From the NCBI RefSeq assembly GCF_900091615.1, contig NZ_FMIA01000002.1, positions 3,968,001 to 4,032,000 of the forward strand: a stretch of DNA of 64,000 nucleotides. The letters are read 5' to 3'. The stretch is from Micromonospora yangpuensis. Lineage in GTDB: Bacteria; Actinomycetota; Actinomycetes; Mycobacteriales; Micromonosporaceae. The stretch's first letter is position 1; the number at the start of each line of letters is the position of its first letter. The notes beneath the pieces are model-generated. The model saw nothing but the letters and a program-made list of their open reading frames with translations. It was not told the DNA's origin and made no database searches. Positions 1 to 9,513 of this stretch are shown here, piece after piece. The translations under genes were made by a program, and so were the position numbers.

Positions 1-979
1 GCGGGGCGGACGGACCGGTCGGGGTCAGGTCGGGCAGCTTCGGCAGGTCGGCGAAGCGCCCGAGGGTCATCGACTCCGGCTCGCCCTGACCGGTGCGGGC
101 CAGCAGGAGGCTGGCCTGCAGTTCGGTGATCCCGGCCAGGCCGTCGGTGTCGACGACCGCGTACTGCCGGCCGCCGCCGGAGTTGCGGACCAGGTAGACG
201 TCGCCGACCGTCGCCCCGGAGACCCGGGCGGAGGCCCGGCCCAGCTCGGGTAACGCGGGCGGGACGAGGTCGGCACCGGCCGGGATGCTGTTGAGCAGGG
301 CCGGTGCGACCGGCACCGCGCGGGCCCGGGTGGCGGCCAGCGCGGCCAGGACACGGTCGGGATCCCGGACCAGGTACCGCCGGTGCCGCCAGAGCAGGTG
401 CAGGCTGCCGTCGGGATGGCGCAACAGCAGCCCGTCGTCGCCGAGCTGCCGCCCGTCCGGAGGGTCCACCCCGATCAGCAGCGCCGAGCGCGGCCCGGAC
501 CGGTCGTCGCCGGCCGGGTCGACCGAACAGACCGTCCAGGCGGCGGTGGAGAGCCGGTCGGGAGCGGGCAGCGAGTCCGGCGCGTCGGCGATGCCCAGCG
601 GCAGCCCGCGGGGCACCCCGTCGATCGACCGGCGGGCGACCAGGATCGTCCTGGGCTGCTCCGCGCCGATGATCAGCAGTGCGGAGGCGTAGTTGAGCAC
701 CGGGTGGAGCTTCTGCTCGCGGTAGACGAACCGCGCCCCGGACTCCTTCTCCACGATCACCGCGCCCTCGTCCCGCCACTTCGTGCTGCCACCGGCGAAG
801 AGCCCGTACAGCGCGAAGCCGCCCAGCCCGATCGCCGCGACCAGGACGCTGGCCAGGGCCGCGCCGGCCAGCCGCCGAAACGGCGACTGGGCTGGGTCGG
901 TGTCCCGCATGACCAGGGCCGCGACCGCCCGCTGGATGGTGAACTGGTACGAGTGGAGCTGGTCCTGCCGCGACGGCAT
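1..979 (-). CDS. eccB: Type VII secretion protein EccB (3' end outside window)
   Basis: Component of the ESX/type VII secretion membrane complex. The ATG at 979 has an AAGGGA ribosome binding site just upstream. The N-terminus (MPSRQDQLHSYQFTIQRAV) is the hallmark EccB opening and is followed by one membrane helix at about residues 38-60, then a large extracytoplasmic domain, the usual EccB layout of a short cytoplasmic N-terminus and a periplasmic core. About 326 codons are visible; the C-terminus lies left of the window, so other T7SS genes may lie there too. The gene runs away from the spermidine synthase-like gene, and the 125-bp gap should hold both promoters. Family assignment is strong; which ESX type it belongs to cannot be told. 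Confidence 0.92.
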   Translation of the reverse strand, partial: MPSRQDQLHSYQFTIQRAVAALVMRDTDPAQSPFRRLAGAALASVLVAAIGLGGFALYGLFAGGSTKWRDEGAVIVEKESGARFVYREQKLHPVLNYASALLIIGAEQPRTILVARRSIDGVPRGLPLGIADAPDSLPAPDRLSTAAWTVCSVDPAGDDRSGPRSALLIGVDPPDGRQLGDDGLLLRHPDGSLHLLWRHRRYLVRDPDRVLAALAATRARAVPVAPALLNSIPAGADLVPPALPELGRASARVSGATVGDVYLVRNSGGGRQYAVVDTDGLAGITELQASLLLARTGQGEPESMTLGRFADLPKLPDLTPTGPSAP

Positions 980-1104
980 CGGATCCCTTCCGGCGAGTCG
1001 GTCGGGGCACAGGATAAGCGCTGCGTCGATATCCCACCGACCCTGCGTGCACCCGCTCCGGCGGGTCGGTACAGTCCCGGGCACGGTCTAGAGCGGGGGA
1101 CGAC

Positions 1105-1818
1105 GTGGGCGTACGGTTTCAGGAACTGGCCTGGCGGCAGACCCCGATCGGCGAGATCAGCCTGCGCCGCCGTCGGGACCCGGCGCTGGACACCGAGGTG
1201 TACGAGGTCAAGCTCGACGACGAGTACCTGATGTCCAGCCTCTTCCCGGTCGCCGAGATCGAGCTGGCCCGACTGGGGCTGGCCGAGCTGACCGGCGACG
1301 ACCTCAACGTGGTGGTGGGCGGGTTGGGCCTCGGCTACACCGCCCGCACCGCGTTGGCCGATCCCCGGGTCGGCTCGCTGGTGGTGGTGGAGGCGATCGA
1401 GGACGTCATCGACTGGCACCGGCAGGGGTTGCTCCCCTTCGCCGCCGGGCTGGCCGACGACCGGCGTACCCGGTTCGTGCGGGCGGACTTCTTCGCCGCC
1501 GCGGAGGCCGAGGCCGGTTTCGATCCGGACGAGCCGGGCCGGCGCTTCGACGCGGTGCTGCTGGACGTCGATCACTCCCCCCGCAACGTGCTGCACCCGG
1601 ACCACGCCCGCTGCTACACCCCGGCGGGGCTGCGGCGGCTCGCCGCCCACCTGCGCGACGAGGGGGTCTTCGCCCTCTGGTCCGACGACCCGCCGGACGA
1701 GGAGTTCGGCGCGGCCCTGGCCGAGGTGTTCGCGACCTGGCAGGCACACGTCGTCAGCTTTCCCAACCCGCTCACCGGCGGCGAGTCGGCCAACACGGTC
1801 TACGTGGCCCGGCGCTGA
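1105..1818 (+). CDS. Spermidine synthase-like methyltransferase-fold protein
   Basis: A 237-aa protein of the spermidine synthase/SAM-dependent methyltransferase fold. It has a nucleotide-binding glycine motif GGLGLGYTAR near residue 71, an acidic residue ending the next strand (VVVEAIEDV) and a DAVLLDVDHSP stretch matching the catalytic-loop region of the fold. Many actinobacterial members of this family are annotated as spermidine synthase without proof of polyamine activity, and no S-adenosylmethionine decarboxylase is visible nearby. The GTG start at 1105 has a purine-rich AGCGGGGGA upstream. A shortened second copy of this gene lies at 6624-6737, before a second copy of the next small gene, so this gene marks the left edge of a partly duplicated block. 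Confidence 0.8.
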   Translation: MGVRFQELAWRQTPIGEISLRRRRDPALDTEVYEVKLDDEYLMSSLFPVAEIELARLGLAELTGDDLNVVVGGLGLGYTARTALADPRVGSLVVVEAIEDVIDWHRQGLLPFAAGLADDRRTRFVRADFFAAAEAEAGFDPDEPGRRFDAVLLDVDHSPRNVLHPDHARCYTPAGLRRLAAHLRDEGVFALWSDDPPDEEFGAALAEVFATWQAHVVSFPNPLTGGESANTVYVARR

Positions 1819-1963
1819 GCCAGGGCCGCAGGCCCCGCCCGGCGCTGAAACCCCCCACCCCGGATTTTTCCGCAGCTACCAGGCATGACGGGCCGCGAGG
1901 CGGGAACCATGATCGGAAGCCGCCGGTCGGTACGCGGCGCGACTACGACCCCGGGAGGGGACC

Positions 1964-2125
1964 ATGCGGGCCATGCTGTTGATCATCGGTGTCGTCGCCG
2001 TGGCGTTCATCGTGCTCGGGGTGCTCCTCGAAGCCGCCCGCTGGCTGGTCATCATCGGCGCGATCGCGTTCCTGGTGATGATCGTGCTGGCCTTCGTCAA
2101 GGGCCGCCAGGCAACCCGCCGCTGA
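1964..2125 (+). CDS. Small two-helix membrane protein, copy 1
   Basis: A 53-aa hydrophobic protein with a GGGAGGGG ribosome binding site seven bases before the ATG. It has two probable membrane segments (about residues 3-22 and 27-45) around a conserved LEAARWL turn and ends in a basic tail (KGRQATRR). A homologous 57-aa protein lies at 6815-6988; the two share MRAMLL-IGVVAVA, LLEAARWL and the FV-GRQ end, but their DNA is clearly diverged, unlike the exact repeat next door. No function can be assigned. It has no match to a family I recognise beyond small actinobacterial membrane proteins. Confidence 0.75.
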   Translation: MRAMLLIIGVVAVAFIVLGVLLEAARWLVIIGAIAFLVMIVLAFVKGRQATRR

Positions 2126-2219
2126 CCGGCGGGCCGCCCGCCGCGCCGTTGCGCCGCTGACCAGCGGGCCGATGCGGGCCGCCGGCCGGGGGCGCCCGCC
2201 GGGGCCGCCCGCCGCGCCG

Positions 2220-2258
2220 CTGACCACCTGGCCGGCCGGCCCGCCGCCGGGTGGTCAG
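2220..2258. terminator. Candidate bidirectional terminator hairpin
   Basis: CTGACCACC at 2220-2228 pairs exactly with GGTGGTCAG at 2250-2258, with a GC-rich loop that can fold further. It sits between the converging small membrane protein gene and the desaturase remnant. No T-tract follows, which is common for actinobacterial terminators. Confidence 0.4.
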
Positions 2259-2625
2259 GCGGGCAGTGCCGTCGCCGGGCGGCTCAGGCCGCTGACCCGG
2301 GGCCGGCGGTTGGGCAGGGAGAGCCGGATGACCTTCCACCAGGCGGAGGCGACCTGCTTGGGCAGTGGCCCGGTGGTGTAGGTCAGGCCGTACCTGTCGA
2401 ACAGGGCGCGCACCTCGGGGGCGATCTCCTGGTAGCGCTTGCTCGGCAGGTCGGGGAAGAGGTGGTGCTCGATCTGGAACGACAGGTTCCCGGTCATCAG
2501 GTGCATCAGCCGGCTGCCGCTGATGTTGGCCGAGCCGAGCATCTGCCGCAGGTACCACTCGCCCCGGGTCTCGCCCTCGATCGAGGTCTTCTCGAAGGTC
2601 TGCACCCCGCTCGGGAAGTGGCCAC
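2255..2625 (-). pseudogene. 3' remnant of fatty-acid desaturase gene
   Basis: This encodes the C-terminal part of the same desaturase as the intact gene at 7158-8333. It keeps the third histidine box (QIEHHLFP) but lacks the first two and the whole N-terminal two thirds, so it cannot be a working enzyme. The reading frame is open to a TGA at 2255, with a different C-terminal tail (PRVSGLSRPATALPA) from the intact copy. The break at 2625/2626 coincides with the start of the IS3-family remnant. From 2307 to 2625 the DNA is identical to 7243-7561 as far as I can read. Confidence 0.85.
2307..2625. repeat. 319-bp direct repeat, left copy
   Basis: By eye, identical base for base to 7243-7561, at a constant offset of 4936. 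The match starts inside the C-terminal coding part of the desaturase and ends exactly where the IS remnant begins. Sequence on either side differs. Recombination between the copies would remove 4936 bp and leave one intact desaturase gene. Confidence 0.9.
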
Positions 2626-2668
2626 TGAGGTTCCCCCGATAGCGTGGAGGCCGGACCTAAGGGGATAG

Positions 2669-2971
2669 ATGGTCATGGCTGAGACGAGGAGACGGTTCGA
2701 CCGGGAGTTCCGTGAGGGCGCGGTGCGGATCGTGCGGGAGACGGGTAAGCCGATCGCGCAGGTCGCTCGGGATTTGGGGATCAACAGCGGCACTCTGGCG
2801 AACTGGGTGGCGCAGGATCGGCGGGATCGGGGTGAGGCCGCCGCCGGCGGGCTCGGTGAGGACGAACGTGCCGAGTTGGCCAGGCTGCGTAAGGAGAACG
2901 CCGAGCTGGCGATGGAGCGTGATGTCCTCAAGCGATCCGTGGTCCTGTGGGTCAAGGAGGCGACGAAGTGA
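2669..2971 (+). CDS. IS3-family transposase OrfA (HTH_Tnp_1)
   Basis: A 100-aa protein with the IS3/IS911 OrfA pattern: an N-terminal helix-turn-helix ([20 protein letters not shown], then [17 protein letters not shown]) followed by a leucine-zipper coiled coil ([26 protein letters not shown]). OrfA normally binds the element ends and is extended by frameshifting into OrfB, which carries the DDE catalytic domain. Here OrfB starts in the overlapping GTG at 2968 but stops after about 20 codons, so the protein may be made but has no catalytic partner. The ATG at 2669 has AAGGGGAT upstream; a second ATG two codons later is possible. Confidence 0.85.
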
Positions 2972-3030
2972 CCGTGGCCGGGTTCGTCGCCGCCCAGAGG
3001 ACCGAGCACGCCGTGCCGCACCGGCCTTGA
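2968..3030 (+). pseudogene. IS3-family transposase OrfB, first 20 codons only
   Basis: GTG at 2968 overlaps the orfA stop, and the translation [20 protein letters not shown] matches the usual OrfB opening. It ends at a TGA at 3028. The DDE catalytic domain is absent. Confidence 0.7.
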
Positions 3031-3134
3031 CAAGTTCCGCCAGGCGCACGCGGTCGGTTGATTCCGTGAACCGACGGCGGTGCGACACGTCAACGTGATG
3101 GCGATAGAACCCCACTGTCAAGGAAGGGCACGAC

Positions 3135-4346
3135 GTGGACACCGAACGGCGACGTACCAACTGGACCGACGAGCACTACGCCCAGGCCCTCAACACCCGC
3201 GAACCTGGCGACCTCCCCAAGCAAAGGGACACCGACCGGATCACCATCAACGGCCACGACGCCGACGTCCCCACCGGCAGACTCCTGAACGCCCTCCGGG
3301 CCGTTGGCCGGAGTGACAGGGGCACCGAGCAGGTGCTCCTCGACGCCCTCGCCCGACACGGACTCACCCCCATCCCACACCCCACCAAACCCGACCACTG
3401 GCGGCTGCCCCCCACCGGCGACCTGGTCATGTGGACCGACCGCATCTACGCCCAAGCCCTCGACACCCGCGAACCCGGCAACCTACCCAAGCGAGAGGAG
3501 ACCGACCGCGTCACGATCAACGGCCACGACGCCGACGTCCCCACCGGCAGACTCCTGAACAAACTCCGGGCCGTTGGCCGGAGTGACAGGGGCACCGAGC
3601 AGGTGCTCCTCGACGCCCTCGCCCGACACGGACTCACCCCCATCCCACACCCCACCAAACCCGACCACTGGCGGCTGCCCCCCACCGGCGACCTGGTCAT
3701 GTGGACCGACCGCATCTACGCCCAAGCCCTCGACACCCGCGAACCCGGCAACCTACCCAAGTCCAGAGACACCGACCGGATCACCATCAACGGCCACGAC
3801 GCCGACATCCCCACCGGCGCCCTCCTGAACAACCTCCGAAGCAAAGGCCGGAGTACCGCGGGCACCGAGCAGGTGCTCCTCGATGCCCTCGCCCGACACG
3901 GACTCACCCCCATTTCGCACCCCACGAAACCCGGCCACTGGCGACTGCCCCCCACCGGCGACAAGGTCATGTGGACCGACCGCATCTACGCCCAAGCCCT
4001 CAACTCCCGCGAACCCGGCAACCTCCCCAAGTACAGAGACACCGACCGGATCACCATCAACGGCCACGAGACCGACGTCCCCACCGGCAGACTCCTGAAC
4101 ACCCTCCAGAACGGTGGCCGGAGTGACGGGGGCACCGAACAGGTACTCCTCGATGCCCTGGCCCGCCACGGCCTCACCCCCACCCCACACCCCGACAAGC
4201 CCGGCCACTGGCGGCTGCCACCCCCGGTCAGCAGCATCGCCGCCCTCACCAGCCCACACACCACCAACCCCAACCGGCCTGCCACCGAGACGACCCGACC
4301 CACCACCGACCCCACCACACCACCAACCAAACGCCCCAAACGCTGA
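3135..4346 (+). CDS. Tandem 90-residue repeat protein A (four repeats)
   Basis: A 403-aa protein not recognised as any characterised family. After nine basic residues (MDTERRRTN) it consists of four 90-aa repeats starting at residues 10, 100, 190 and 280, then a Thr/Pro-rich tail ending KRPKR. Each repeat has the skeleton WTD-x2-YAQAL, PG-x-LPK, TDR-x-TINGH, PTG-x-LL-x2-L-x3-GR-x3-GTEQVLLDAL-x-RHGLTP and HWRLPP. The W, the G-LP turn, the PTG-LL helix and the final helix weakly resemble the helicase-associated (HA) domain found in repeat at the ends of actinobacterial helicases; that link is inference. Differences between repeats fall mainly at unit positions 21-23, 40, 43-44, 46-48 and 51-53. 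No signal peptide or membrane segment is seen. GTG at 3135 has AAGGAAG upstream. Confidence 0.8.
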   Translation: MDTERRRTNWTDEHYAQALNTREPGDLPKQRDTDRITINGHDADVPTGRLLNALRAVGRSDRGTEQVLLDALARHGLTPIPHPTKPDHWRLPPTGDLVMWTDRIYAQALDTREPGNLPKREETDRVTINGHDADVPTGRLLNKLRAVGRSDRGTEQVLLDALARHGLTPIPHPTKPDHWRLPPTGDLVMWTDRIYAQALDTREPGNLPKSRDTDRITINGHDADIPTGALLNNLRSKGRSTAGTEQVLLDALARHGLTPISHPTKPGHWRLPPTGDKVMWTDRIYAQALNSREPGNLPKYRDTDRITINGHETDVPTGRLLNTLQNGGRSDGGTEQVLLDALARHGLTPTPHPDKPGHWRLPPPVSSIAALTSPHTTNPNRPATETTRPTTDPTTPPTKRPKR

Positions 4347-6505
4347 CGACACAATCACCACCCCAACCCGTCCGACCAGCTCCAACAGAAAAGAACACAA
4401 CATGGACACCCAACCCCGACGCACCACCTGGACCGACAAGCACTACGCCCAAGCCCTCGACACCCGCGAACCCGGCAACCTCCCCAAGCAAAAAGACACC
4501 GACCGCGTCACCATCAACGGCCACGACACCGACATCCCCACCGGCAAACTCCTGGACAACCTCCGGGCCCAAGGCCGGCGTGACGGGGGCACCGAACAGG
4601 TACTCCTCGACGCCCTGACCCGCCACGGACTCACCCCCATCCCCCACCCCGCAAAGCCTGACCACTGGCGACTGCCCCCCAGCGGCGACCTGGTCATGTG
4701 GACCGACCGCATCTACGCCCAAGCCCTCAACTCCCGCGAACCCGGCAACCTCCCCAAGTCCAGAGACACCGACCGGATCACCATCAACGGCCACGACGCC
4801 GACATCCCCACCGGCGCCCTCCTGAACAAACTCCGGGCCGCTGGCCGGATCACCGGGGGCACCGAGCAGGTGCTCCTCGACGCCCTGGCCCGCCACGGAC
4901 TCACCCCCATCCCCCACCCCACCAAACCCGACCACTGGCGACTACCACCCACCGGCAACCGGATCACGTGGACCGACCGCATCTACGCCCAAGCCCTCAA
5001 CACCCGCACACCCGGCAACCTCCCCAAGCGAGAGGACACCGACCGCGTCACGATCAACGGCCACGACGCCGACGTCCCCACCGGCAAACTCCTGGACAAC
5101 CTCCGGGCCCAAGGCCGGCGTGACGGGGGCACCGAACAGGTACTCCTCGACGCCCTCGCCCGACACGGACTCACCCCCATCCCACACCCCACCAAACCCG
5201 ACCACTGGCGACTACCACCCACCGGCGACAAGGTCATGCGGACCGACCGCATCTACGCCCAAGCCCTCAACACCCGCGAACCCGGCAACCTCCCCAAGTC
5301 CAGAGACACCGACCGGATCACCATCAACGGCCACGACACCGACATCCCCACCGGCAAACTCCTGAACACCCTCCGAACCGCTGGCCGGCGTGACGGGGGC
5401 ACCGAACAGGTACTCCTCGACGCCCTCGCCCGACACGGACTCACCCCCATCCCCCACCCCACCAAACCCGACCACTGGCGGCTACCACCTGCCGTCAGCA
5501 GCATCGCCGCCCTCACCAGCCCACACACCACCAACCCCAACCGGCCTGCCACCGAGACGACCCGACCCACCACCGACCCCACCACACCACCAACCAAACG
5601 CCCCAAACGCTGACGACACAATCACCACCCCAACCCGTCCGACCAGCTCCAACAGAAAAGAACACAACATGGACACCCAACCCCGACGCACCACCTGGAC
5701 CGACAAGCACTACGCCCAAGCCCTCAACACCCGCCCACCCGGCAACCTCCCCAAGTCCAGAGACACCGACCGCGTCACCATCAACGGCCACGACGCCGAC
5801 ATCCCCACCGGCAGACTCCTGCACCACCTCCGAACCGCTGGCCGGATCACCGGGGGCACCGAGCAGGTACTCCTCGACGCCCTGACCCGCCACGGACTCA
5901 CCCCCATCCCCCACCCCGAGAAACCCGACCACTGGCGACTACCACCCACCGGCAACCGGATCACGTGGACCGACCGCATCTACGCCCAAGCCCTCAACAC
6001 CCGCCCACCCGGCAACCTCCCCAAGTCCAGAGACACCGACCGCGTCACCATCAACGGCCACGACGCCGACATCCCCACCGGCAAACTCCTGAACACCCTC
6101 CGAACCGCTGGCCGGCGTGACGGGGGCACCGAACAGGTACTCCTCGACGCCCTGACCCGCCACGGACTCACCCCCATCCCCCACCCCACCAAACCCGACC
6201 ACTGGCGACTACCACCCACCGGCAACCGGATCACGTGGACCGACCGCATCTACGCCCAAGCCCTCAACACCCGCCCACCCGGCAACCTCCCCAAGTCCAG
6301 AGACACCGACCGCGTCACCATCAACGGCCACGACGCCGACGTCCCCACCGGCAGACTCCTGAGCAACCTCCGGACCCATGGTCGGAGTACCAGGGGCACC
6401 GAACAGGTACTCCTCGACGCCCTGACCCGCCACGGACTCACCCCCATCCCCCACCCCACCAAACCCGACCACTGGCGGCTACCACCTGCCGTCAGCAGCA
6501 TCGCC
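3162..6505 (+). repeat. Eleven 270-bp coding repeats in three genes
   Basis: Units start at 3162, 3432, 3702, 3972, then 4429, 4699, 4969, 5239, then 5696, 5966 and 6236; each codes for 90 residues. A higher-order period of 1267 bp also exists: the three genes start at 3135, 4402 and 5669 and share nearly identical tails, 55-bp spacers and leaders. Such similarity implies recent duplication or gene conversion. The strand is strongly C- and A-rich, unlike the neighbouring genes. Confidence 0.95.
4402..5613 (+). CDS. Tandem 90-residue repeat protein B (four repeats)
   Basis: A 403-aa paralogue of the protein encoded at 3135-4346, with the same design: basic leader MDTQPRRTT, four 90-aa units from residue 10, and the same Thr/Pro tail ending KRPKR. 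Units 1 and 3 share the variable set K / DN / RAQ / RDG at positions 40, 43-44, 46-48 and 51-53; unit 2 has A / NK / RAA / ITG and unit 4 has K / NT / RTA / RDG. ATG at 4402 is preceded by AGAAAAGA, and the 55-bp spacer suggests cotranscription with the gene before it. An upstream in-frame extension exists but would run through the tail of the previous gene in another frame and is rejected. Function unknown. Confidence 0.8.
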   Translation: MDTQPRRTTWTDKHYAQALDTREPGNLPKQKDTDRVTINGHDTDIPTGKLLDNLRAQGRRDGGTEQVLLDALTRHGLTPIPHPAKPDHWRLPPSGDLVMWTDRIYAQALNSREPGNLPKSRDTDRITINGHDADIPTGALLNKLRAAGRITGGTEQVLLDALARHGLTPIPHPTKPDHWRLPPTGNRITWTDRIYAQALNTRTPGNLPKREDTDRVTINGHDADVPTGKLLDNLRAQGRRDGGTEQVLLDALARHGLTPIPHPTKPDHWRLPPTGDKVMRTDRIYAQALNTREPGNLPKSRDTDRITINGHDTDIPTGKLLNTLRTAGRRDGGTEQVLLDALARHGLTPIPHPTKPDHWRLPPAVSSIAALTSPHTTNPNRPATETTRPTTDPTTPPTKRPKR

Positions 6506-6610
6506 GCCCTCACCAGCCCACACACCACCAACCCCAACCGGCCTGCCACCGAGACGACCCGACCCACCACCGACCCCACCACACCACCAACCAAACGCCC
6601 CAAACGCTGA
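5669..6610 (+). CDS. Tandem 90-residue repeat protein C (three repeats)
   Basis: A 313-aa third paralogue with the same leader and tail but only three 90-aa units. Its variable sets at positions 40, 43-44, 46-48 and 51-53 are R / HH / RTA / ITG, K / NT / RTA / RDG and R / SN / RTH / STR. Unit 2 matches unit 4 of protein B at these positions, pointing to unit shuffling or conversion between genes. The DNA after its stop matches the spacer that follows the other two copies for about 14 bases and then switches abruptly to a spermidine synthase fragment at about 6624, which marks the right edge of the repeat-gene array. No known function. Confidence 0.8.
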   Translation: MDTQPRRTTWTDKHYAQALNTRPPGNLPKSRDTDRVTINGHDADIPTGRLLHHLRTAGRITGGTEQVLLDALTRHGLTPIPHPEKPDHWRLPPTGNRITWTDRIYAQALNTRPPGNLPKSRDTDRVTINGHDADIPTGKLLNTLRTAGRRDGGTEQVLLDALTRHGLTPIPHPTKPDHWRLPPTGNRITWTDRIYAQALNTRPPGNLPKSRDTDRVTINGHDADVPTGRLLSNLRTHGRSTRGTEQVLLDALTRHGLTPIPHPTKPDHWRLPPAVSSIAALTSPHTTNPNRPATETTRPTTDPTTPPTKRPKR

Positions 6611-6623
6611 CGACACAATCACC

Positions 6624-6737
6624 ATGGTGTACGAGGTCAAGCTCGGCGACGAGTACCTGGCGGCCCACGTGGTGACCTTCGCCAACCCCCTGACCGGCGG
6701 GGAGTCCGCCAACACCGTCTACCTGGCCCGCCCCTGA
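6624..6737 (+). pseudogene. Internally deleted spermidine synthase-like remnant
   Basis: A 37-codon open frame joins VYEVKLGDEYL (residues about 31-41 of the gene at 1105-1818) directly to its last 25 residues (AAHVVTFANPLTGGESANTVYLARP). The first 30 residues and roughly 170 internal residues, including the SAM-binding motif, are missing, so no enzyme can result. The fusion is in frame and the array junction supplies an ATG. Its sequence differs from the intact copy, as the following small gene does, so this is a diverged second locus and not a fresh copy. Confidence 0.85.
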
Positions 6738-6814
6738 GCCTCCCTGAGCTGCCCTCGGCCCGGGCACGCCGGACCCACCGCTGACCGTCTCGGCGGGCAT
6801 GACCGGGCGGGTAC

Positions 6815-6988
6815 ATGCGGGCCATGCTGCTGGTCATCGGCGTCGTCGCGGTGGCGCTCGTGCTGCTCGGACTGCTTCTGGAGGCGGCCCGGTGGCTCAT
6901 CGTCATCGGGGCGATCGCCTTCGTGGTCCTCTTCGTGCTGGCCTTCGTGCGGGGCCGCCAGAGCACCCGACCGTCACACCGTCGCTGA
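6815..6988 (+). CDS. Small two-helix membrane protein, copy 2
   Basis: A 57-aa homologue of the protein at 1964-2125, with the same MRAML start, two hydrophobic segments, LLEAARWL turn and FVRGRQ motif before a short hydrophilic tail (STRPSHRR). It keeps its place between a synthase-like gene (here a remnant) and a desaturase gene (here intact), so the three-gene order is conserved in both blocks. No strong ribosome binding site is seen upstream of ATG 6815. Function unknown. Confidence 0.7.
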   Translation: MRAMLLVIGVVAVALVLLGLLLEAARWLIVIGAIAFVVLFVLAFVRGRQSTRPSHRR

Positions 6989-7043
6989 GCGGACCGGTTG
7001 TCCGGGGTCGGCCCGCCGTCGAGTCGTACCCGGGAAAAGACCG

Positions 7044-7068
7044 GGCCCCGGCGGGTGACGCCGGGGCC
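7044..7068. terminator. Terminator hairpin between converging genes
   Basis: GGCCCCGGCG (7044-7053) and CGCCGGGGCC (7059-7068) form a perfect 10-bp stem with a GGTGA loop. It lies between the small membrane protein gene and the end of the desaturase gene and could serve both. Confidence 0.55.
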
Positions 7069-7157
7069 GGGCGGGGTCGGCCGTGGGGCGGTGGCCCCCG
7101 GCCGGGGTTACCGGCCCAGGTCGGGCCGGGGTCTCGTACCGGTGCGGAAGCGACCGG

Positions 7158-8333
7158 TCAGGCGGCCGTGAGGGCCGGGGTGGGTGCCTCCGCGCCGACC
7201 TCGGTGGTGGCCCTCGGGGGCGCGGTGGGGGTGGCCGGGCGACGGTTGGGCAGGGAGAGCCGGATGACCTTCCACCAGGCGGAGGCGACCTGCTTGGGCA
7301 GTGGCCCGGTGGTGTAGGTCAGGCCGTACCTGTCGAACAGGGCGCGCACCTCGGGGGCGATCTCCTGGTAGCGCTTGCTCGGCAGGTCGGGGAAGAGGTG
7401 GTGCTCGATCTGGAACGACAGGTTCCCGGTCATCAGGTGCATCAGCCGGCTGCCGCTGATGTTGGCCGAGCCGAGCATCTGCCGCAGGTACCACTCGCCC
7501 CGGGTCTCGCCCTCGATCGAGGTCTTCTCGAAGGTCTGCACCCCGCTCGGGAAGTGGCCACACATGATCACCGAGTGGCTCCACAGGTTGCGGATCAGGT
7601 TGGCGGTGAAGGTGGCGGCGAGGGTGGTCAGGAAGGACGGGCCGGACAGCAGCGGGTGGATGACGTAGTCCTTGAGCACCTGCCGGCGGATCTTGCGGCC
7701 GACGGCGCGTACCCGGGCCCGGAACTCGGGGGCCTTGTGCCGGCCCTTGCGCAGGTTGCGCCCCAGCTCCAGGTCGTACGCGGCGATGCCGTACTCGAAG
7801 AAGCAGGCGTTGAGGAAGTTCCACAGCGGCTGGCCGAGGTGCAGCGGGTACCACTTCTGGTCCTCGTCGACGCGCATGATGCCGTACCCGAGGTCGTTGT
7901 CCTTGCCGAGCACGTTGGTGTAGGTGTGGTGCAGCTCGTTGTGCGAGTGCTTCCACTGGTCGGCCGGGGAGACGTGGTCCCACTCCCAGGTGGTCGAGTG
8001 GATCTTCGGGTCGCGCATGAAGTCGTACTGGCCGTGCAGGATGTTGTGGCCGATCTCCATGTTCTCCAGGATCTTCGCCACCGCCAGGCCGGCGGTGCCG
8101 ACCAGCCAGGCCGGCGGGAAGAGCGAGAAGAGCAGGACCGCCCGGCTGCCCAGCTCCAGCTTGCGCTGGGTGGCGATGACCTTGCGGATGTACGCCGCGT
8201 CGGCCTCGCCCCGCTCGGCGATGACGCGGTCGCGGATGGCGTCGAGTTCCTTACCGAGGACCTCGATGTCCGCCGCGCTGAGGTGGGCGATCGGGTTCTG
8301 GGACTTGTTCTGGATCGCGGTCACGTCCGCCAA
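7158..8333 (-). CDS. Membrane fatty-acid (acyl-CoA) desaturase, DesA3-like
   Basis: A 391-aa di-iron membrane desaturase introducing a double bond into an acyl chain. All three histidine boxes are present: GHNILHG (H96, H100), HNELHHTYTN (H131, H135, H136) and QIEHHLFP near residue 330. Hydrophobic spans lie around residues 65-90 and 225-260. It is followed by a pairing partner: the gene upstream in the same operon (8340-9431, six bases away) encodes an electron-transfer reductase. This is the arrangement of the mycobacterial DesA3/Rv3230c stearoyl-CoA delta-9 desaturase system, so delta-9 desaturation is likely but inferred. Its last 319 bp of conserved coding sequence recur at 2307-2625. 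ATG at 8333 has AGGAGT upstream. Confidence 0.9.
   Translation of the reverse strand: MADVTAIQNKSQNPIAHLSAADIEVLGKELDAIRDRVIAERGEADAAYIRKVIATQRKLELGSRAVLLFSLFPPAWLVGTAGLAVAKILENMEIGHNILHGQYDFMRDPKIHSTTWEWDHVSPADQWKHSHNELHHTYTNVLGKDNDLGYGIMRVDEDQKWYPLHLGQPLWNFLNACFFEYGIAAYDLELGRNLRKGRHKAPEFRARVRAVGRKIRRQVLKDYVIHPLLSGPSFLTTLAATFTANLIRNLWSHSVIMCGHFPSGVQTFEKTSIEGETRGEWYLRQMLGSANISGSRLMHLMTGNLSFQIEHHLFPDLPSKRYQEIAPEVRALFDRYGLTYTTGPLPKQVASAWWKVIRLSLPNRRPATPTAPPRATTEVGAEAPTPALTAA
7243..7561. repeat. 319-bp direct repeat, right copy
   Basis: Right partner of 2307-2625; here the repeat is embedded in the intact desaturase gene and reading continues without a break into the N-terminal coding part. Confidence 0.9.
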
Positions 8334-8339
8334 CTCCTG

Positions 8340-9431
8340 TCACAGGTCGATGTCGCAGGCGCCGGCCGCAGCCGACACACAGGTCTGGATGAGTACGCCG
8401 TCGCCGGGCACCGCCGTGGTGACGGTGCCGTTGCGCAGGTCCCGGACCGCGCCCTGCCGCAGCGGCAGCACGCAGCCGTAGCAGATGCCCATCCGGCAGC
8501 CGGAGGGCATCAGCACGCCGGCGGACTCCCCGGCGTCGAGGATCGGGGTGGCGCCGTCGGCCCGCAGGGTCACCGCCGCCCGGGTGAAGGTGACCTCGCC
8601 GCCGGCACCGGGGGTGACGACGGTGGGTCGGAAGCGTTCGGTGTGCAGCCGCTCGGCGCGCTGCCGGGCCGTCCAGTGCGCCTCGACGGCGTCCAGCAGG
8701 CCGACCGGGCCACACGCCCAGGTCTGCCGGTCCAGGTGGTCTCCGACCAGCTCGTCGAGCTGGTCGACGGTCAGCGGACCGGCGGTGTCGGTGTGCCGTT
8801 CGTGCAGCCGGATGGCTCCCCGCGCCGCGAGGTCCCGCAGCTCGGCGGCGAAGATCACGTCGTCGGGGGTGGGTGCGGAGTGGATCAGCACCACGTCGGC
8901 GGCCCGGTGGACCCCGGCACGCAGCATCGCCATCACCGGGGTGATGCCGCTGCCCGCGGTGACGAAGAGGACCCGCTCCGGGACGGGCCGGGGCAGCACG
9001 AAGTCACCCTGGGCCTGGTCGAGCTGGACGATCGTGCCCGGCTGGATCCGGCGTACCAGGTGGTTGCTGACCACGCCGTCGGGAATGGCCTTGACGGTGA
9101 CCGAGATGGGCGCGCCCGGCCGTCCGGGCACCGAGGTGACCGAGTACGCCCGCCACTGGCGCACCCCGTCGACGTCGACACCGAGGCGGACGTACTGGCC
9201 GGGGGTGTGGCCCCGCCAGCCCCGGCCGGGCTGGATGGTCAGGGTGGCGGCGTCGCGGGTCTGGGGTTGCACGGCGAGGATCCGGCCGCGCAGCGCCGCG
9301 CCGGAGCGCAGCGGGTCGATCAGGTCGAGGTAGTCCTCCGGCAGCAGCGGCGTCGTCACCGTCTCGGCGAGCCGCATCAGCCGGTCCCGCAGCGAGGCCT
9401 TCCGGGGCGGGCGCGTCGCGATCGAGGTCAT
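8340..9431 (-). CDS. FAD/[2Fe-2S] reductase for the desaturase (Rv3230c-like)
   Basis: A 363-aa flavin and iron-sulfur oxidoreductase that passes electrons from NAD(P)H to the desaturase. In order it has a basic N-terminal region, an FAD-binding barrel (RAYSVTS near residue 100), an NAD(P)-binding domain (FVTAGSGITPVMAML) and a C-terminal plant-type ferredoxin domain with cluster cysteines in SGCRMGICYGC plus IQTC. The order FAD-NAD-ferredoxin is that of the mycobacterial desaturase reductase. It is the first gene of the two-gene operon and is divergent from a PucR-like regulator across 99 bp. Confidence 0.9.
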   Translation of the reverse strand: MTSIATRPPRKASLRDRLMRLAETVTTPLLPEDYLDLIDPLRSGAALRGRILAVQPQTRDAATLTIQPGRGWRGHTPGQYVRLGVDVDGVRQWRAYSVTSVPGRPGAPISVTVKAIPDGVVSNHLVRRIQPGTIVQLDQAQGDFVLPRPVPERVLFVTAGSGITPVMAMLRAGVHRAADVVLIHSAPTPDDVIFAAELRDLAARGAIRLHERHTDTAGPLTVDQLDELVGDHLDRQTWACGPVGLLDAVEAHWTARQRAERLHTERFRPTVVTPGAGGEVTFTRAAVTLRADGATPILDAGESAGVLMPSGCRMGICYGCVLPLRQGAVRDLRNGTVTTAVPGDGVLIQTCVSAAAGACDIDL

Positions 9432-9496
9432 ATCCCCAGAGTGACTACCCCGGCGGATAAAATCTTGACCTGACGGTGTGAATGACTCCTGCGTTA

Positions 9497-9513
9497 TTGT
9501 TCACTGGGAACAA
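9497..9513. promoter_or_regulatory. Perfect palindrome in desaturase/PucR intergenic region
   Basis: TTGTTC-ACTGG-GAACAA is a perfect 6-bp inverted repeat with a 5-bp centre, 17 bases before the regulator's start codon. Its position in the divergent region makes it a good candidate operator for the neighbouring regulator or another dimeric regulator. Confidence 0.55.

Follow-up and report, generated by a model that had tools for sequence, protein, structure and literature searches.

Three tandem genes carry eleven repeat units

The subject of this analysis is an array of three tandem repeat genes in a 64,000-nucleotide stretch of the Micromonospora yangpuensis genome (contig NZ_FMIA01000002.1, positions 3,968,001 to 4,032,000, forward strand), hereafter the window, in which positions are counted from its first letter. 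An earlier note, made from the sequence without database searches, had described four, four and three near-identical units of 90 residues in these genes, and the coordinates and the 270-nt register confirm this: each of the 11 units spans exactly 270 nt (90 residues), in register. The residue sets that the note had given for positions 40, 43-44, 46-48 and 51-53 are all correct as well, reading R/NA/RAV/SDR, R/NK/RAV/SDR, A/NN/RSK/STA and R/NT/QNG/SDG in gene 1; K/DN/RAQ/RDG, A/NK/RAA/ITG, K/DN/RAQ/RDG and K/NT/RTA/RDG in gene 2; and R/HH/RTA/ITG, K/NT/RTA/RDG and R/SN/RTH/STR in gene 3. The features of the array are listed below, with the residues of each unit at positions 21,22 - 40,43,44,47,48.

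3135..4346, + strand: gene 1, 403 residues, GTG start, four units and a C-terminal basic tail, isoelectric point (pI) 9.4
3162..3431, + strand: unit 1.1, QR-RNAAV
3432..3701, + strand: unit 1.2, RE-RNKAV
3702..3971, + strand: unit 1.3, SR-ANNSK
3972..4241, + strand: unit 1.4, YR-RNTNG
4347..4401, + strand: 55-nt spacer and leader preceding gene 2, repeated at 5614-5668 ahead of gene 3
4402..5613, + strand: gene 2, 403 residues, four units and tail, pI 9.9
4429..4698, + strand: unit 2.1, QK-KDNAQ
4699..4968, + strand: unit 2.2, SR-ANKAA, the unit modelled
4810..4842, + strand: predicted recognition helix of unit 2.2 (codons 38-48), in which 40, 43, 44, 47 and 48 are variable (modelled helix 38-47, helical wheel)
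4969..5238, + strand: unit 2.3, RE-KDNAQ
5239..5508, + strand: unit 2.4, SR-KNTTA
5669..6610, + strand: gene 3, 313 residues, three units and tail, pI 11.0
5696..5965, + strand: unit 3.1, SR-RHHTA
5966..6235, + strand: unit 3.2, SR-KNTTA
6236..6505, + strand: unit 3.3, SR-RSNTH
6506..6610, + strand: C-terminal tail of gene 3, ending KRPKR, with identical residues across genes 1-3, predicted disordered

Related units occur in a paralogue and on a Streptomyces plasmid

The window's genome (6.52 Mb, two contigs) holds 15 unit matches, comprising the 11 of the array, three in a paralogue of 320 codons elsewhere in the genome (locus L016) and one half unit (L017). Upstream of the paralogue, at L016 6060-6150, a short plus-strand stretch looks, by eye, like some of the unit sequence in reverse complement, which hints at a past rearrangement. 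At L017 6003-6161 a tail-like stretch follows the half unit, and the two together seem to be what is left of another paralogue.

When 72,556 plasmids were searched with tblastn, a single relative was found, the 510-kb linear plasmid NZ_CP109471.1 of Streptomyces sp. NBC_01462. It carries 32 unit matches, 30 of them in seven intact genes whose annotation is hypothetical protein; each gene has 3-5 units some 87 residues long, and two gene pairs are in tandem; a truncated copy (281428-281640) and a diverged piece (285747-285941) were left out of the unit counts, as was the half unit at L017. The plasmid units are about 47% identical, and window and plasmid units share on average 55% of residues 1-50. 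The plasmid proteins have long tails with a basic terminus (KRGRKR), GGAGGG, of ribosome-binding type, precedes all seven genes, and transposase genes lie near them. Approximately 90 bases directly ahead of each plasmid gene are conserved, with the core GGTGGGGTGAACCGTGG (loci L039, L070 and L071), and the DNA upstream of this shared leader differs between the gene groups; the leader is a candidate for a common promoter, operator or mobile-cassette border.

No match was returned by a protein search of 60 other relatives or by a profile search of 159 other genomes of the genus. All profile searches scored 13 or 33 candidates per genome only. Four wider ones, in three of which the window's own genome is included, had matches in 2 of 396 genomes at the level of the phylum, 4 of 394 in the class, 2 of 397 in the order and 10 of 392 in a genus taken to be Streptomyces. 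The remaining matches were single and weak, with expectation values (E) of 1.8e-5 to 8.9e-4, and looked like chance in the five loci inspected. Among the ten weak matches in the presumed Streptomyces genomes (best E 1.8e-5), nine covered model columns 33/34 to 80-82, and the two inspected (L072 and L073) looked by eye like the C-terminal part of ABC-transporter ATPases; the other chance matches were a frame without a convincing gene (L028), the strand opposite a ClpX-like gene, again by eye (L074), and a UvrA-like frame (L095). Viral contigs yielded no confirmed relative, and neither did genome contigs searched with patterns from this genome's units, a search that plasmid-like relatives could escape. 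Phage records gave nothing at E 0.01 with tblastn; a single-unit query with the E limit at 10 gave 80 records (best E 0.9, not significant), 77 of them Vibrio phages, those shown being tail or hypothetical proteins. Among the titles and abstracts listed in literature searches, none described this repeat family of about 90 residues; the earlier note knew of no described system of this kind.

Variation is concentrated at a few positions in all three unit sets

The differences between units had been placed beforehand at positions 21-23, 40, 43-44, 46-48 and 51-53. This a priori set is the only one fixed before the data were seen. A core set (21, 22, 40, 43, 44, 47 and 48) was picked after both the window and the plasmid families had been seen, and because it was post hoc, the tests were rerun with the a priori list unchanged. 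For the window units, nonsynonymous divergence was 0.372 at the a priori twelve versus 0.038 in the other columns of 6-72, and none of 5000 random draws of twelve columns reached the former value. For the eleven plasmid counterparts of these positions, 5 of 5000 draws were as high, and columns with at least four residue types numbered 6/11 among the counterparts versus 3/61 among the others (P = 2.0e-4), while in the paralogue 7/12 a priori columns vary versus 10/54 others (P = 0.009). The core set gave 6/7 versus 3/65 on the plasmid (at least four residue types) and 7/7 versus 10/59 in the paralogue (varying columns). Column entropy was correlated between window and plasmid (0.50 over 71 columns), and 0 of 20000 permutations gave a correlation as high.

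We also compared the proportions of nonsynonymous and synonymous differences (pN/pS) by a counting method over all unit pairs and columns 6-72. For the a priori set the window gave a ratio of 1.49 and the plasmid one of 1.90, compared with 0.34 and 0.46 in the remaining columns; at the core set it was 1.69 and 1.68, against 0.46 and 0.48 elsewhere, and under resampling of units the core values ran from 1.38 to 2.93 in the window and from 1.19 to 2.61 on the plasmid. Variation is thus not evenly spread: it is concentrated at the a priori positions, well beyond chance, without being exclusive to them.

The remainder of the unit had been called almost invariant even in DNA, which was overstated, since 34 of 90 residue columns vary among the window units, 18 more vary synonymously only and 38 codons are invariant. 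Besides the twelve first noted, residues vary at columns 1, 4, 5, 11, 12, 14, 17, 27, 33, 34, 36, 64, 71, 72, 75, 78 and the linker 85-90; the linker, together with positions 4-5, where first and later units differ, makes up part of this variation. As for the listed positions themselves, the seven of the core set recur, whereas 23, 46 and 51-53 are less general: on the plasmid neither 46 nor 51 varies, 52 falls in a gap, and two residue types occur at 23 and likewise at the counterpart of 53. At position 21 the plasmid units show just three residue types, and the hairpin positions 26 and 33 vary there but hardly do so in the window.

At the core positions, 264 of 308 cells (86%) hold R, K, H, N, Q, S, T, D or E, which are the usual base-contacting residues, and 1 of 308 holds L, I, M, F, W, Y or C, versus 21.7% of cells elsewhere. 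Core sets are mostly distinct (10 of 11 in the window, 24 of 30 on the plasmid). None of the helix sets occurs in more than one of the window, the plasmid and the paralogue.

The unit is predicted to be a compact domain

AlphaFold2 predicted unit 2.2 as a compact a-bb-a-a-b domain, with a predicted local distance difference test score (pLDDT) of 91.4 and a predicted template modelling score (pTM) of 0.81. Positions 40-48 lie on one helix face in this model, and on a helical wheel the core helix positions cover 300-80 degrees, with L/F41, L42, L45, R/Q46 and G/R49 occupying 100-240. The proposal of a fixed scaffold with a few variable helix positions is thereby backed from three sides, namely by the paralogue, by the 30 plasmid units and by the confident unit model, in which 40, 43, 44, 47 and 48 share one face.

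For the tandem, modelled with the gene 3 protein, the pTM was 0.45, with soft unit borders and a pLDDT below 50 over residues 276-313 (the tail). This model gives the units the look of separate beads joined by flexible linkers. For such an architecture, which appears closer to a zinc-finger array than to a rigid superhelix, the comparison with TALE, PUF and ankyrin proteins was off. A sequence search of the PDB with the units returned nothing credible.

Likeness to known sequence families is remote

No Pfam model scored above its cut-off in the three window proteins. The weak likeness to the helicase-associated domain (PF03457) that the earlier note had pointed to exists, yet is remote. Three plasmid proteins scanned scored 24.8, 23.0 and 27.5 bits, the last being a five-unit protein, against a curated cut-off of 28.4; PF03457 was not listed in the scans of the three window proteins or the paralogue, and among single units it matched 1 of 44 (E 0.059). 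In profile-profile comparison the probability was 90% over 34 columns (the variable helix and the next helix) with all 44 units and 15.7% with the 14 units of the window's genome alone, and a profile comparison with helicase-associated units scored 36, where 60 column shuffles reached no more than 14.6. A solved example of the domain found by sequence is 2kta. Given the sub-threshold scores, the 15.7% with the genome's own units and the single match among 44, we did not file the family as a member of PF03457. No helicase domain passed its cut-off in the seven array proteins scanned.

Two other families gave matches that we regard as unexplained leads. DUF3641 (PF12345) scored 41.7, 29.5 and 28.0 bits in three plasmid proteins against a cut-off of 24.9; these are whole-protein scores, the best stretch covers only 36-38 of 134 positions, single units matched in 14 of 44 cases (best E 0.012), and the family was not listed for the window proteins or the paralogue. 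The tail assembly chaperone family phrog_15555 matched one five-unit plasmid protein at E 3.9e-13, window gene 2 at 0.078 and 19 of 44 single units (best E 0.001); at L071 9794-11470 a weak match places profile positions 10-59 on unit positions 10-59. Further weak matches in PHROGs, such as phrog_2089 (gene 2 at E 3.6e-6, though none of its stretches passes alone), and in Pfam, such as RRM_DEAH11 (24.1 of 27 bits in gene 2, sub-threshold), were not used as evidence. NCBIfam matches in four proteins were all below cut-off, PADLOC found no match in three proteins, and nothing in window 1-9500 exceeded the Rfam gathering scores.

The array lies between broken gene copies

A gene group made up of a methyltransferase-like, a small membrane protein and a fatty-acid desaturase gene is partly duplicated in window 1105-8333, and its two copies, each incomplete, flank the array. 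Besides the methyltransferase-like gene (1105-1818) and the desaturase gene (7158-8333), the neighbouring features are:

2300..2629, - strand: duplicate C-terminal piece of the desaturase gene, 99% DNA identity over 300 nt, 98% over 110 residues
2669..2971, + strand: transposase orfA remnant adjoining the array (PF01527, 56.7 bits), presumably IS3-type
6663..6731, + strand: fragment of a second methyltransferase-like gene copy, C-terminal part

One relative (L092) has the methyltransferase-like, small membrane protein and desaturase genes adjacent to one another, and the array is absent at the matching locus in all six relatives compared, five of which were checked within 1.5 kb on each side of the methyltransferase-like gene. 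GC content at third codon positions is 0.84-0.86 in the array versus 0.945 and 0.952 in two neighbouring genes. The absence in relatives, the flanking duplications, the transposase remnant and this difference in composition fit a recent arrival on mobile DNA.

A model of modular recognition, and its alternatives

We propose that the three genes encode modular recognition proteins that most likely read nucleic acid through one helix face, and we put the probability of this at about one half. Each 90-residue unit would be an autonomous a-bb-a-a-b domain, with 3-5 units strung on short flexible linkers and followed by a disordered tail whose end is basic. The exposed helix face (40, 43, 44, 47 and 48) would read the target with the assistance of loop 21-22, the rest of the unit serving as a fixed scaffold, and selection for differing targets would diversify the variable positions while entire units and genes, as they duplicate and recombine, would give rise to new unit orders. 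Nucleic acid is suggested as the target because the variable residues are polar, the tail end and the window proteins are basic (pI 9.4-11, the paralogue included) and there is the remote helicase-associated likeness. The target would most likely be a DNA (or RNA) sequence, at a few nucleotides per unit, to which the tail may contribute non-specific affinity, and the genes, carried on mobile DNA, may serve as sequence-addressed repressors or interference factors.

Several observations weigh against this proposal. Two of the five unit models were poor (pLDDT 49 and 47), the input alignment for the unit model had 14 rows only, and the exposure of the variable face was judged from the helical pattern, without measurement on coordinates. 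A structure search of the PDB with the unit model gave no convincing fold match to any nucleic-acid-binding domain. The consensus single unit is nearly neutral (pI 7.1), two of the seven plasmid proteins have a pI below 7, and over the whole stretch 38-48 the pN/pS was 2.41 in the window but only 0.77 on the plasmid. The units are, moreover, akin to one another, so the pN/pS ratios and P values do not come from independent data.

Some of these points would suit intracellular protein- or peptide-binding repeats whose variable face recognizes, for example, phage or plasmid proteins, an explanation we consider appreciably less probable than nucleic-acid reading. A scaffold with a variable face is equally expected of such repeats, and the near-neutral units and the plasmid proteins that are not basic agree with it. 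However, protein-binding repeats usually carry aromatic and aliphatic residues at their variable positions, and the one such cell in 308, the basic tail end and the helicase-associated likeness speak against it. That likeness would be shared by non-specific nucleic-acid-binding beads of the helicase-associated type, whose exposed helix face drifts unconstrained. Exposed positions would drift alike in any array, so recurrence alone is compatible with drift, as is the plasmid ratio of 0.77; yet we hold drift to be unlikely in view of pN/pS ratios of 1.5-1.9 at the variable positions in both families, which stay above 1 after resampling of units, of changes that avoid hydrophobic residues, and of helix 57-66, which is not similarly variable (pN/pS 0.10 in the window and 0.47 on the plasmid).

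The variable codons might alternatively have been made by targeted mutagenesis through an adenine-directed diversity-generating retroelement. Polymorphic nucleotide columns in core codons include A in 18 of 19 cases in the window and 15 of 17 on the plasmid, more often than in the other codons of 6-72 (22 of 36 and 45 of 70), and the genome has one reverse-transcriptase gene (RVT_1, L094 856-2349, a 497-residue frame). This gene nevertheless lies about 3 Mb away, unlinked to the arrays, the plasmid has no RVT_1 match, the 15 unit matches in the genome include no separate template copy, and some columns without A vary too, all of which makes this origin highly improbable. Least probable of all is a decaying repeat cluster without function. 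The broken flanking gene copies and transposase, and the truncated units at L017 and on the plasmid, are what decay would leave, but all 11 genes (three in the window, one paralogue, seven on the plasmid) have open frames, the unit bodies are under purifying selection (pN/pS below 0.5), and a ribosome-binding-type sequence stands before every plasmid gene.

Few modular recognition families have a separable code, and those that are known turned into biological models and tools. Here a repeat family for which no Pfam family or fold match was found has its variation set out at five to seven positions, and nature supplies 41 units of two lineages (11 from the window, 30 from the plasmid) plus three of the paralogue, which make the question of a code directly testable with few purified proteins. 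It is possible, at somewhat less than even odds, that these proteins form a new zinc-free, non-TALE class of modular nucleic-acid readers, in which a 90-residue bead reads a few nucleotides via five helix residues and actinobacterial mobile elements use families of readers with differing unit orders. If so, the natural residue sets would be words of a readable code, open to deciphering and reprogramming.

Comparison with known systems

The helicase-associated domain also comes in tandem units, and unit residues ~34-68 align with its second half. In the array units the aligned part is preceded by a beta-hairpin and followed by a strand, the fold search gave no match, and the array proteins have no helicase and are built of near-identical units with a variable face.

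Among other tandem repeat proteins, those named MOON and pTERF came as DNA binders from a repeat-protein screen, with hypervariable positions in MOON, according to Hu et al. 2024 (PMC11417379), which also gives the TAL effector unit as 34 residues, two of them variable, and the C2H2 zinc finger as a bb-alpha element with its specificity residues on the helix. The likeness of MOON and pTERF to the array lies, by that description, in the tandem repeats and, for MOON, in the hypervariable positions. A further screen (PMC5472282) covered unit lengths of 30-43 residues and required 10 or more repeat pairs, limits under which this family could not be detected; the words Streptomyces, Micromonospora and Actino- are absent from the main texts of both papers.

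TAL effectors and TALE-like proteins (STAR, BurrH, RipTAL) likewise have near-identical units, few specificity-like positions and paralogues with different units. TAL effector repeats form a superhelix with the variable residues in a loop, whereas the array units have 87-91 residues, a variable helix face, more variable positions and seemingly independent units; the TAL effector model PF03377 reached only E 0.057, in one plasmid protein. C2H2 zinc fingers are beads on linkers, with two cysteine and two histidine zinc ligands per unit. The array units have no such ligands (0-1 cysteines per protein in the 11 proteins of window, paralogue and plasmid), and they are about three times as long and bacterial.

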